NCBI RefSeq assembly: GCF_004799325.1
Contig: NZ_SSMD01000001.1
Coordinates: 62,001-126,000, forward strand
From: Thalassobius vesicularis
GTDB taxonomy: Bacteria > Pseudomonadota > Alphaproteobacteria > Rhodobacterales > Rhodobacteraceae
Direction of reading: 5' to 3'
Length of the DNA stretch: 64,000 nucleotides
The translations under genes and the position numbers were made by a program. This document shows, piece after piece, positions 13,525 to 18,616 of the stretch. The stretch's first letter is position 1. Every line of letters starts with the position of its first letter. Under the pieces are notes generated by a model, which was not told the origin of the DNA, ran no database searches, and saw nothing but the letters and a program-made list of their open reading frames with translations.

Positions 13525-13555
13525 TGTGATCACAGCATTCCTATGCGTGATCACA
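13525..13555. promoter_or_regulatory. Paired TGTGATCACA operator upstream of sdhC
   Basis: TGTGATCACA (13525-13534) is a perfect 10-bp palindrome; CGTGATCACA (13546-13555) is a second copy with one changed base. Their centres are 21 bp apart, two helical turns. An almost identical pair with the same 21-bp spacing lies upstream of sucC at 18586-18616. The pair lies about 100-120 bp upstream of the predicted sdhC start site, a position that fits an activator or a looping regulator. Confidence 0.7.
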
Positions 13556-13647
13556 AAACCAATCATAAGGGAATTTGTCGGGATTTGCGCCGATTCCGTC
13601 GCCGATGCTGCAGCTGCACCGCTAACATTTGGATCGGCGAATTTGTT

Positions 13648-13677
13648 GGGCCGCGCCGGAATTTCCCTGCGCGGCCC
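13648..13677 (-). terminator. Hairpin after mch
   Basis: GGGCCGCG (13648-13655) pairs with CGCGGCCC (13670-13677), just beyond the mch stop codon. There is no long T-run, so it could be a weak terminator or an RNA 3' end stabiliser. It separates the mcl2-mch transcript from the sdh promoter. Confidence 0.5.
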
Positions 13678-13683
13678 GACAGA

Positions 13684-14718
13684 TCACATCGGCATCAGCG
13701 CCCAGTAGTCCAGATCCAGCAGGACGTCGGGCAGGTACTTGCCGTCTTCGCCCTTCAGCTGGCCGGGCTCGGCACCGGCCTTGACGGCGACCAGGCGCAG
13801 GCGGATCGCGCCGACGCCGGGGGCGGTGGTTTCGGCCTTGTCCAGCACCTCGGACCAGGCTTTGACGGTCAGGCCGCTGAAGCACGGGTTGGCATGCGCG
13901 CCGCCGTTCAGGCCGACGATCATCTGCGCATTGGCCAGGCCGTTGAACGACAGAGCCCGCGCCATCGAGATCACGTGGCCGCCGTAGATCAGCCGCTGCC
14001 CGTCGGGGCGGAAGGTGGCGTCGAAGTGCACCTTGGCGGTGTTCTGCCACAGGCGGGTGGCGATCATGTGCTCGGCTTCCTCGATGGTGACGCCGTCGAC
14101 GTGGTCGATGATCTCGCCCACCTCGTAGTCGCCCCAGCGGTGCGGCTCGCCGGCCTGCACGAAGTCGTAGTTCGAGAAATCCAGCCCCTCGGGGATCACC
14201 AGCTCGCCCGCCGGAATGACCTTTTTCAGATCGGGGATGACGGTTTCCGGGGCGGGCGCGCCCAGGTCGTTCTTGCGCACCATGACCCAGCGGACATAGT
14301 CCAGAACCACCTCGTCCAGCTGGTTCCAGCCACGGGTGCGGACGTAGACCACGCCGGATTTGCCGTTCGAGTTTTCCTTCAGCCCAATCACCTCGGAGGT
14401 CGAGCGCAGCGTGTCCCCGGCGAAGACCGGCTTCAGCCATTTGCCCTCGGCATAGCCCAGGTTGGCGACGGCGTTCAGCGACACGTCCGGCACGGTCTTG
14501 CCGAACACGACGTGGAACGCGGCCAGGTCGTCCAGCGGGCTTTCGGGCAGGCCGCTGTCGCGGGCAAACTCATCGGACGAGTACAGCGCGTGACGCGCCG
14601 GGTACAGCGCATGATACAGCGCGCGCTCGCCCTCGCCCACGGTACGCGGGACGGCATGGGCGATCACGTCGCCGATCTTGTAGTCTTCGAAAAAGCGGCC
14701 CGGGTTGGTCTTCGCCAT
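13684..14718 (-). CDS. mch: Mesaconyl-CoA hydratase (beta-methylmalyl-CoA dehydratase)
   Basis: A 344-residue double hot-dog protein with two MaoC-like halves. It hydrates mesaconyl-C1-CoA to (2R,3S)-beta-methylmalyl-CoA in the ethylmalonyl-CoA pathway. The N-terminus NPGRFFEDYKIGDVIAHAVP and the two dehydratase-like segments (GEGERALYHALYPARHALYSS and YGGHVISMARALSFNG) match the family, whose usual length is near 340. Its ATG overlaps the stop of the DUF1737 gene by one base (TGATG), so translation is coupled. mcl2, of the same pathway, is three genes upstream. Confidence 0.93.
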   Translation of the reverse strand: MAKTNPGRFFEDYKIGDVIAHAVPRTVGEGERALYHALYPARHALYSSDEFARDSGLPESPLDDLAAFHVVFGKTVPDVSLNAVANLGYAEGKWLKPVFAGDTLRSTSEVIGLKENSNGKSGVVYVRTRGWNQLDEVVLDYVRWVMVRKNDLGAPAPETVIPDLKKVIPAGELVIPEGLDFSNYDFVQAGEPHRWGDYEVGEIIDHVDGVTIEEAEHMIATRLWQNTAKVHFDATFRPDGQRLIYGGHVISMARALSFNGLANAQMIVGLNGGAHANPCFSGLTVKAWSEVLDKAETTAPGVGAIRLRLVAVKAGAEPGQLKGEDGKYLPDVLLDLDYWALMPM

Positions 14719-14921
14719 CAGTGTTCTCCCAGTTTGGTGTCGGGGGTGTAGGTGCCTTCGACCTCTTTCACCACGGCCTGCCCGCAGCGCATGACGCCAT
14801 TGGCGGCGTCAAAGGCATAGGTCGGCTGGCCGTGCAGTTCCCAGCCCTTGTTCAGGGCGGCGGTGACCTTGTGGCAGAAGGCCGAGGTGTCGTCCTCGGT
14901 CAGGAATCTGTACAGTTTCAT
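14718..14921 (-). CDS. DUF1737 domain-containing protein
   Basis: A 67-residue protein that begins MKLYRFLTEDDTSAFCHKV, the DUF1737 signature, and continues with NKGWELHGQPTYAFD. The start at 14921 was taken because family members begin MKLY; the longer frame to 14978 would run into the nnrU stop region. Function is unknown; the domain is a short stand-alone fold found often beside metabolic enzymes. It is translationally coupled to mch and four bases from nnrU, so it belongs to the mcl2-nnrU-DUF1737-mch operon. Confidence 0.85.
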   Translation of the reverse strand: MKLYRFLTEDDTSAFCHKVTAALNKGWELHGQPTYAFDAANGVMRCGQAVVKEVEGTYTPDTKLGEH

Positions 14922-14925
14922 GGTG

Positions 14926-16503: not shown

Positions 16504-17256
16504 TCAGGTCAATGCATCCCAGATCAGCTTGACCCCGGTCAGGGTCAGCAGGACGTAGGTCAGGCTGAAAAACGCCCGCTCGGGCACCATGTGATGCGCC
16601 TTGACCCCCAGCGAGGCGCCCAGAACGGCGAACGGCGCCAGCAGCAGATCGGCCCACAGCGTCTGCGCCGTGAAGATGCCCAGAAAGGCGTAGGGGATGA
16701 ATTTCGCAATGTTGATCGCCCAGAAGATCAGCACTGTGGTCGCTTGATACGGCGTCTTTCCCAGCCCGCGCGACAGCAGGTAGACGGCGGCGGGCGGCCC
16801 TCCGGCGTGGCTGACAAAGCTGGTGAACCCGGCCAGCGCGCCGGCCAGCGCGCCGCCCCATTGCGGCATCTCTCGGGCGGGCGGACGGATCAGCCGGGTC
16901 TTCAGCGCCATCTGCCAGCCCACGAAAGCCAGCGAGATCCCGCCGATCAGCAGCCGGAAAAGATCGGCGTCGGCGACCTGATACAGCCACGCGCCGATCG
17001 CCACGCCGGGCAGCGCGCCCAGGATCAGCAGGCGGGCGTCGGGCCAGCTCCACTTCTTCCAATAGGGGCGCAGGGTGGTCACATCGACCAGCATCAGCAG
17101 TGGCAACATGATGCCAAGTGCTTGTCCCGGCTCCAGAACCAGAGCGAGAATCGAGGCCGCCGCAAAGGCCGCTCCGGACCCGAAACCACCCTTGGAAATC
17201 CCCGCAAAGGTGACTGCCGGTGCTGCGACAGCAAAAAAAGCCCAGTCCAATTGCAT
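16504..17256 (-). CDS. TauE/SafE family membrane transporter
   Basis: A 250-residue integral membrane protein with about eight hydrophobic segments. GISKGGFGSG in the first segment and SFVSHAGGPPAAVYLL in the middle are the twin motifs of the TauE/SafE family, which exports sulfite, sulfoacetate or similar small anions. The start at 17256 (MQLDWAFF) was chosen from family length; no strong Shine-Dalgarno distinguishes it from an ATG at 17313. It diverges from mdh. The substrate is not determined. Confidence 0.85.
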   Translation of the reverse strand: MQLDWAFFAVAAPAVTFAGISKGGFGSGAAFAAASILALVLEPGQALGIMLPLLMLVDVTTLRPYWKKWSWPDARLLILGALPGVAIGAWLYQVADADLFRLLIGGISLAFVGWQMALKTRLIRPPAREMPQWGGALAGALAGFTSFVSHAGGPPAAVYLLSRGLGKTPYQATTVLIFWAINIAKFIPYAFLGIFTAQTLWADLLLAPFAVLGASLGVKAHHMVPERAFFSLTYVLLTLTGVKLIWDALT

Positions 17257-17416
17257 ACCGTTGTATTCCGTAAAGTCCCGTCGCCACTCGGATTTAGGGC
17301 GTTTGCGCGTCATATCACAGTCACAAAAGCCTGTCGCCGCTGCGCAGCAGACTTGAAACGAAGGCGCGAAAAGATTACGCCATGCGCGAAATTCAAACGG
17401 ACCGGAGATGAATTCC

Positions 17417-18379
17417 ATGGCCAGACCCAAGATTGCCCTCATCGGCGCAGGCAACATCGGTGGCACCCTTGCCCACCTCGCAGCCCTGAAAGAACTCGGC
17501 GACATCGTGATGTTCGACATCGCCGACGGCCTGCCCCAGGGCAAGGCCCTCGACATCGCGGAGTCGGGCCCCTCGGAAGGCTTCGACGCGGCCATGTCGG
17601 GCACCAGCTCGTACGAGGACATCGCAGGCGCGGACGTCTGCATCGTCACCGCCGGTGTCGCCCGTAAGCCGGGCATGTCGCGCGACGACCTGCTGGGCAT
17701 CAACCTGAAGGTCATGAAGTCGGTCGGCGAAGGCATTGCCGCGCACGCACCCGACGCATTCGTCATCTGCATCACCAACCCGCTGGACGCGATGGTTTGG
17801 GCCCTGCAGAAGTTCTCGGGCCTGCCCCCGCACAAGGTGTGCGGCATGGCTGGCGTGCTGGACTCGGCCCGTTTCCGTCACTTCCTGTCGGTCGAATTCG
17901 GCGTGTCCATGCGTGACGTGACCGCGTTCGTTCTGGGCGGCCACGGCGACACCATGGTGCCGTCGGTGCGTTACTCGACCGTTGCCGGTATCCCCCTGCC
18001 CGACCTGATCGAGATGGGCTGGACCACCCAAGAGAAGATGGACGCGATCGTTCAGCGCACCCGTGACGGCGGCGCCGAGATCGTTGGCCTGCTGAAGACC
18101 GGCTCGGCGTTCTACGCACCGGCCACCTCGGCCATCGAAATGGCCGAAGCCTACCTGAAAGACCAGAAGCGCGTTCTGCCCTGCGCCGCCTATTGCGACG
18201 GCGAGATCGGCGTGAAGGACATGTATGTCGGCGTTCCGACCGTGATCGGCGCCGGCGGCGTCGAGCGCGTCGTGGACATCAAGCTGACCAAAGAAGAGCA
18301 GGTCATGTTCGACAAGTCGGTTGACGCCGTCAAAGGCCTGGTCGCTGCTTGTAAAGAGATCGACCCCTCGCTGGCCTAA
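17417..18379 (+). CDS. mdh: Malate dehydrogenase
   Basis: A 320-residue NAD-dependent malate dehydrogenase of the LDH-like subgroup. [11 protein letters not shown] is the NAD-binding loop, RDDLLGIN and ITNPLD are substrate-side segments, and GGHGDTMVP holds the catalytic histidine. GGAG is nine bases before the ATG at 17417, while the in-frame ATG at 17408 touches it and is rejected. It oxidises malate to oxaloacetate in the TCA cycle. A strong terminator follows, so mdh is a transcript separate from sucCD. Confidence 0.97.
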
Positions 18380-18401
18380 GCCGGTTTCGGGACGGATTTC
18401 A

Positions 18402-18426
18402 GGGGCGCCTTCGGGCGCCCCTTTTT
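18402..18426 (+). terminator. Intrinsic terminator after mdh
   Basis: GGGGCGCC (18402-18409), the tetraloop TTCG, GGCGCCCC (18414-18421), then TTTTT. This is a textbook rho-independent terminator 22 bases after the mdh stop codon. It separates mdh from the sucC promoter region. Confidence 0.93.
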
Positions 18427-18585
18427 CATGCGCCGACCCGTCCAAATTCAAATTTTCGCATGATTTTCACGGCAAATCAGGCACTCGCGGCCCATTGCAG
18501 TGTCATGCCCATGTCGTAAATTCGGGTCATCAGGGACGAATCAATCCCTGCTTGCGCCGGATGGGAACGCAACGTCACCAGGTGT

Positions 18586-18616
18586 TGTGATCACAGTTTT
18601 TCAGAGTGTGATCACA
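18586..18616. promoter_or_regulatory. Paired TGTGATCACA operator upstream of sucC
   Basis: Two perfect TGTGATCACA palindromes, 18586-18595 and 18607-18616, are centred 21 bp apart, so they lie on the same face of the helix. The block ends 107 bp before the sucC ATG. The sdhC copy has the same words, the same spacing and a similar distance to its gene (121 bp). Shared flanks (TTGTGATCACAG on one side, ATCACAAA on the other) point to one regulator for both operons. Confidence 0.75.

Follow-up and report, generated by a model that had tools for sequence, protein, structure and literature searches.

Paired palindromes before sdhC and sucC in Thalassobius vesicularis: very probable operators of the GntR-family regulator AkgR

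Results

Two operator-like pairs before tricarboxylic acid cycle operons

The tricarboxylic acid (TCA) cycle operons that begin with sdhC and sucC in Thalassobius vesicularis (G000 in our genome set, 3.79 Mb in 46 contigs) are each preceded by two copies of a short palindrome. Both lie within the 64,000-nucleotide stretch analysed here (contig NZ_SSMD01000001.1, positions 62,001 to 126,000), which we call the window and in whose coordinates positions are given unless a contig is named. The putative operators and the genes behind them are as follows.

13525..13534: sdh promoter-proximal operator, TGTGATCACA, conserved before sdhC in relatives
13546..13555: sdh promoter-distal operator, CGTGATCACA on the plus strand, starting 21 bp from the proximal operator
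18586..18595: suc promoter-distal operator, TGTGATCACA
18607..18616: suc promoter-proximal operator, TGTGATCACA
13020..13403, minus strand: sdhC, first gene of the sdh operon (Pfam Sdh_cyt)
18724-19917, plus strand: sucC (Pfam)

The letters and a pattern search bear out the coordinates that a preliminary description of this DNA had claimed for all four palindromes, and its term "identical" is accurate save for one base, in CGTGATCACA at 13546-13555, as it had itself said. Its start-to-start distance of 21 bp is found in both the sdhC and sucC pairs, and the 107–121 bp that it gave to the ATG corresponds to 107 bp from the nearer site to the sucC ATG (18724) and 121 bp to the sdhC ATG (13403, minus strand). 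There is also, as it had reported, no further full copy of TGTGATCACA in the window, the only other site with at most one mismatch being 51668-51677. With one mismatch allowed the window holds five matches, against a mean of 1.15 after shuffling, and five were reached by 1 of 100 shuffles. The whole genome contains four exact copies of TGTGATCACA, compared with 1.3 expected from the composition of the window; three of these belong to the sdhC and sucC pairs, and the fourth stands just before the gene of a GntR/FCD regulator, some 210 kb distant. When the pair is sought with its 11-bp gap and up to three mismatches, it occurs genome-wide only before sdhC and sucC (none for the reversed control), and the number of perfect pairs expected in the genome by composition is about 4e-7. 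Single sites with one mismatch number 37 in our genome against 4 for the reversed control; this excess was left unused, the reversed pattern holding CTAG, which is rare in such genomes.

The lack of a full pair before mdh, also in the preliminary description, is confirmed in our genome at up to three mismatches, and none of the classified loci of relatives described below has mdh as the target of a pair (single sites before relatives' mdh were not searched). A role at mdh was rejected on these two counts.

Conservation of the pair and its spacing

We used a family sample of 295 genomes from 294 genera and a class-level sample of 289 genomes. The preliminary description had asked whether the pair lacks conservation before sdh and suc in close relatives, or is common at unrelated loci, and neither is the case. 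A 21-bp pair with at most two mismatches is present in 250 of the 295 family genomes, at one to three places each, with no reversed-control match among those listed. Sixteen of the 45 genomes without this standard pair have a variant before sucC or sdhC, 15 at 20 bp and one (G058) at 21 bp with three mismatches, which brings the family genomes with any pair to 266 of 295. Placement by gene was done for part of the 250 pair-bearing genomes, with 118 loci, some of them duplicates of one place, classified by the gene behind the pair; 106 of the 118 have it directly before sucC or sdhC. Elsewhere it stands before an sdhC with an unmatched N-terminus (L240), before a sucA with its own pair (L032, genome G177), before an lpd gene not behind sucB (L079 and L238, one place in genome G289), and before fumC, whose ATG lies 124 bp past the pair (L074, genome G042); detached lpd or fumC genes that have no pair lie outside this count. 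One place (L076 and L241) lies near a contig end, and no pair at 20 or 21 bp is present in L086, L087, L092, or L097. Of the third pairs, that at G022:C77 is close to a contig end with no readable target, and that at G115:C1:186475 (L075) was judged a chance occurrence, lying inside a transaldolase-like coding gene. The regulon in the classified loci is the section of the TCA cycle from 2-oxoglutarate to fumarate/malate, and the earlier notion of a site dedicated to a TCA-cycle regulon and used by a pair of dimers is favoured by the evidence.

A spacing-neutral search of the family sample, for two copies of the palindrome GTGATCAC—contained in our own operators—separated by a gap of 3-33 bp, matched in 268 of the 295 genomes, with one reversed-control match (in G243). 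Among the at least 75 places listed, 65 show 21 bp, five show 20, two show 18, and 13, 27, and 31 occur once each, and the 45 genomes without the standard pair have 31 places, of which 18 are at 20 bp, three at 21, and ten at other distances. The exact 21-bp spacing of the preliminary description is hence the commonest arrangement and not the sole one, 20 bp being found as well. A third site, exact to two mismatches, lies 21 bp further upstream at sucC in G197, G285, G135, and G191, and at sdhC in G125. Two departures were seen in passing: G265 (2.6 Mb) has 11 GTGATCAC doublets with 3-33 bp gaps, against two in most tabulated genomes, and in G187 two copies of GTGATCAC stand 13 bp apart before the regulator gene (G187:C1:3357949-3357969).

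At class level, a GTGATCAC doublet at 20 or 21 bp was found in 6 of the 289 genomes, namely the four of our own family that also carry the regulator at E<=1e-45, G440, and G495; in the same search G367 gave five matches to the reversed control, and G495, which lies outside the family, gave no match to the window genes or the regulator. The doublet of G440, likewise outside the family (L251, G440:C189:992-1020), is spaced at 21 bp, has another TGATCACA before it, and is followed by a GntR/FCD gene whose product is 28% identical to AkgR. Because of this doublet, tandem use of the motif may be older than AkgR itself.

The regulator gene and its own site

The fourth genomic copy of TGTGATCACA leads to a gene that we identify, by its neighbourhood and the RSP numbering, as the orthologue of AkgR.

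G000:C1:286410-287054 (L004:844-1491), minus strand, outside the window: AkgR orthologue gene
G000:C1:287064-287073 (L004:1501-1510): fourth TGTGATCACA, ending 9 bp short of the regulator's likely start codon

Its product has an N-terminal winged helix (Pfam GntR, 2.8e-13) and a C-terminal FCD domain (9.5e-17), as in the FCD subgroup of the GntR family. The start codon was chosen by where the alignments of relatives begin; the longest open reading frame would span the site. All 30 best-matching loci (L037-L066, our own genome included) have the site upstream, 27 exactly, two with one mismatch, and one with two. For the best 80 of 539 relatives (named records) the site is exact in 70, has one mismatch in eight and two in one, and is missing from one, so that 78 of 80 carry it with at most one mismatch before the regulator start; in 72 of the 80, TTGAC or TTGAT starts exactly 17 bp before it. 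The site thus follows this -35 box, covers the expected -10, and precedes the start codon, a placement that would suit repression of the gene by its own product.

Pair and regulator go together across the family. A regulator match at E<=1e-30 is found in 262 of 266 pair-bearing genomes and in 12 of 29 without a pair (Fisher p 1.5e-16), and at E<=1e-70, a cut picked after a gap had been seen in the values, in 259 of 266 and 6 of 29 (p 8e-23).

We take AkgR to be RSP_0981, a number that leads one to expect a place beside sdh (RSP_0974-6), and this is what the genome of Rhodobacter sphaeroides displays. In G051, whose reaction-centre L subunit is 100% identical to that of R. sphaeroides, the regulator gene lies 750 bp beyond sdhB and its product is 76-77% identical to ours. 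The reading frame before the regulator ends in ..RFGD in both genomes and is YgjP-like by Pfam, a search made in our own genome only. G051 also has a perfect sdhC pair and a sucC pair with one mismatch. PMC4344238 predicts that RSP_0981, a GntR protein, regulates sucCD, sdh (RSP_0974-6), and 2-oxoglutarate dehydrogenase, and PMC6365646 includes GTGATCAC among AkgR binding sites. Our operators contain this palindrome, and their targets are likewise sdh, sucCD, and the 2-oxoglutarate dehydrogenase genes. Because of the co-occurrence with the regulator, the R. sphaeroides orthologue beside sdhB, and the published motif GTGATCAC, the pairs are very probably AkgR operators. The preliminary description had raised AkgR with hesitation, a guess that motif, regulator neighbourhood, targets, and co-occurrence make very probably right.

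Promoter phase and A/T tracts

The promoter elements proposed for the two operons are listed below.

13461..13466, minus strand: predicted sdhC -35, GTGACA, from an expectation-maximization (EM) motif of 47 sdhC upstreams (our genome being L006)
13439..13444, minus strand: predicted sdhC -10, TATTAA, spacer 16
18661..18666, plus strand: putative weak -35-like sucC element, TTTAGG, 2 bp nearer than the conserved TTT position
18686..18691, plus strand: putative -10-like sucC element, TATACG

The EM search of the 47 sdhC upstreams returned CGTGAC with a TAT-type -10, and 42 of them fall into classes about one helical turn apart, with block starts at 49.5 (1), 58.5-61.5 (34), 70.5-71.5 (4), and 79.5-81.5 (3). 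A fixed-pattern pass over the same upstreams gave 38 calls with a vector length of 0.89 at period 10.5, the nominal p of which was left unused because most calls share one distance. By a rule-based call (TGAC plus the best -10) on 52 sdhC upstreams, 50 received a promoter, and in 37 of the 50 a distance of 61.5-64.5 bp separates the -35 hexamer from the proximal site's centre. The 13 deviant distances are 8.5, 21.5, 44.5, 52.5 (2), 67.5, 73.5 (2), 74.5 (2), 82.5, 83.5, and 84.5, and their offsets fit best a period of 10.5 bp among nine tried (vector length 0.67), while the distance from -35 to ATG has little periodicity (0.23). When only calls with GTGAC[AT] are kept, a selection made after the data had been seen, eight deviants remain (52.5, 73.5 x2, 74.5 x2, 82.5, 83.5, and 84.5), all at most 2 bp from whole turns. 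Relative to the pair, the predicted sdhC promoter thus appears to shift mostly by whole helical turns.

For sucC, EM was rejected, its motif having locked onto the ribosome-binding region, and a generic promoter score was set aside for its scattered calls; positional conservation was used instead. Across 45 sucC upstreams a conserved TTT stands at 51.5-53.5 bp, counted from the centre of the proximal site, about one turn nearer than the sdhC -35.

On the promoter side, A/T content peaks at about 0, 16, 25.5, 36, and 45 from the pair centre. At 24-27 it reaches 0.91-0.98 in the 45 sucC upstreams, versus 0.24-0.33 at 21-23 and 0.18-0.22 at 30-32, counts that were made without a shuffle control; 42 sdhC upstreams have the same pattern in weaker form. 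On the far side, the flank from -16 to -18 is A/T-rich and no series follows. A/T tracts about every 10 bp on the promoter side would be in keeping with phased bending of the DNA or with alpha-subunit contacts of the polymerase.

Gene context

The suc unit spans 18724..28098 (plus strand), from sucC through lpd, and the remainder of the sdh unit spans 8394..13009 (minus strand), including two extra open reading frames between sdhA and sdhB. The genes below were named by reading their translations.

12638-13009, minus strand: sdhD
10820-12625, minus strand: sdhA
8394-9173, minus strand: sdhB
19922-20809, plus strand: sucD
21073-24036, plus strand: sucA
24040-25533, plus strand: sucB
26704-28098, plus strand: lpd

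The gene order of both units is kept in G051. The extra frames between sdhA and sdhB (9207-10804) overlap each other, encode 266 amino acids each, and have no Pfam match at 1e-3, and sucB is separated from lpd by a glycosyltransferase family 2-like frame (25589-26575, Pfam Glyco_tranf_2_4). At 519-2579 and 13684-16455 the TCA operons are interspersed with genes for mesaconyl-CoA hydratase, HpcH/HpaI lyase, and enzymes of the methylmalonyl-CoA-mutase type; genes of these kinds occur in the ethylmalonyl-CoA pathway, and counterparts lie nearby in G051 as well.

Discussion

We are confident in reading the pairs as tandem operators for two AkgR dimers that would activate TCA operons, and the single site before akgR as one of autorepression. 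In each pair, two dimers of the GntR/FCD regulator would be bound in tandem on one DNA face, with two helical turns between them. Reckoned from transcription starts that were estimated from the promoter-like elements, they would sit at about -97/-118 for sdhC and -87/-108 for sucC. So placed, they would assist RNA polymerase in initiating at both promoters, and the phased A/T tracts between pair and promoter would either curve the DNA or serve as contacts for the C-terminal domains of the polymerase alpha subunits. At akgR, the lone site, which follows the TTGAC box and precedes the start codon, would allow autorepression. What the comparison itself shows is the sites and their conservation, their spacing and co-occurrence with the regulator, the phase of the predicted promoters, and the A/T periodicity; binding, activation, autorepression, and polymerase contact are what we infer from these, activation because PMC6365646 calls AkgR a transcriptional activator.

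Several points weigh against this interpretation. The genomes are related, so that no statistic counts independent draws. The 12 of 29 pairless genomes that match the regulator at E<=1e-30 (six at <=1e-70) have it without a pair, and four of 266 pair-bearing genomes lack it: G096 and G264 (both 77% complete, G264 being assigned by elimination), G256 (93%), and G114 (100%). At E<=1e-45, the four positive genomes among the 289 of the class-level sample all belong to our own family, with none outside it, whereas the primary AkgR paper is said to report orthologues in other alphaproteobacteria. R. sphaeroides (G051) has no palindrome before its regulator gene, and autorepression is accordingly not universal. 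Positional conservation in the 45 sucC upstreams gave no clear -35, and EM failed there. Five of the 47 EM assignments at sdhC fall outside the classes, with posteriors of 0.70-0.93, and two of the 52 upstreams gave no promoter call. L031 departs from the phase by 4 bp, and L198, L217, and L073 by 2-2.5 bp; because of L031, a strict test that takes the largest phase error as the bound for all deviants falls short of significance at 0.067. L031 and L198 each also have CGTGAC at 62.5.

It strikes us as unlikely that AkgR, bound to the pair, represses the TCA operons or uses it as a loop operator. The same site does occupy a repressing position within the core promoter of akgR, and tandem sites can serve cooperative repression; the pairs, however, stand well upstream of the inferred promoters at positions mostly constant or shifted by whole turns, the weak-looking sucC promoter suits activation, and PMC6365646 names AkgR an activator. 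We give still less credence to the idea that the pair chiefly serves another GntR protein, such as the 39% identical paralogue at G000:C4:31408-32022. Although the G440 relative is preceded by a 21-bp doublet and a Pseudomonas regulator 32% identical to AkgR is reported with the palindrome in PMC6365646, the 150 bp ahead of the paralogue's gene contain no such site (the best has two mismatches, at -122), and the site accompanies the AkgR orthologue in 78 of the 80 loci examined among the best of 539 relatives. At E<=1e-8 our genome holds two relatives only, the AkgR orthologue and this paralogue.

Hardly credible are global regulators from other families, CceR/LacI or CRP-type, as owners of the palindromes, since the pairs examined stand nearly all at TCA operons. 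TGTGA/TCACA resembles CRP half-sites, but those lie 6 bp apart and the half-sites here abut; a CRP-type operator, TGTGA-N6-TCACA, was rejected for want of a spacer. PMC4344238 does not predict proteins analogous to CRP in R. sphaeroides, and it predicts CceR (RSP_1663) to act on sdh and mdh too, with a motif, [AGT]GTT-N6-8-AAC, unlike this palindrome. A CceR (LacI) operator was rejected when inspection of the conserved core TGTGATCACA found no such motif.

Beyond tandem activation as such, we lean slightly towards seeing AkgR as a geometry-coded dual regulator, in which two dimers spaced by two turns, standing whole turns upstream of the promoter with phased A/T tracts behind them, would activate TCA operons and one dimer in a core promoter would silence its own gene. 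Lineages would then shift the sdhC promoter mostly in steps of whole turns (distances of about 52, 63, 74, and 83 bp), gain a third in-phase site, or lose the autorepression site, as in R. sphaeroides. GntR proteins are mostly repressors, and a GntR-family activator needing a phased dimer tandem would, if true, be unusual among them.

The regulator, its targets, and the core of its motif are already known, and the comparative geometry is a useful addition. The result assigns a palindrome pair to a described regulator and provides a family-wide operator rule by which operators can be predicted across Rhodobacteraceae. It turns the statement that AkgR activates TCA genes into testable geometry, namely allowed spacings, a reason for two dimers, and whole-turn shifts of the sdhC promoter. 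It also predicts autoregulation in most relatives examined, which is invisible from R. sphaeroides, where the site is gone. In the literature searched, with the primary AkgR paper beyond our reach, we found no description of the tandem spacing or promoter phase, which we do not claim to be unpublished, nor of the A/T tracts towards the promoter or a single site 17 bp behind TTGAC at the regulator gene; GntR regulation by tandem sites with helical-turn spacing was not found in that literature either.

Class I activators such as E. coli CRP are active at upstream sites one helical turn apart. The arrangement here is similar in that the site lies upstream and its distance to the promoter may change by whole turns, and differs in protein family, in the use of two dimers rather than one, and in sites that lie farther upstream. 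The PS417_07240-type regulator of deoxyribonate clusters, described in PMC6365646, is a GntR relative with GTGATCAC near its own gene; it is 32% identical to AkgR and has other targets and one reported palindrome, with no phased pair. Also among the closest known systems is the RSP_0981 (AkgR) regulon of R. sphaeroides: although G051 lacks the single operator that our genome and 78 of 80 loci (best 80 of 539) have before the regulator, it shares with T. vesicularis an orthologous GntR/FCD regulator (judged by neighbourhood), the palindrome GTGATCAC, the targets, and both 21-bp pairs.

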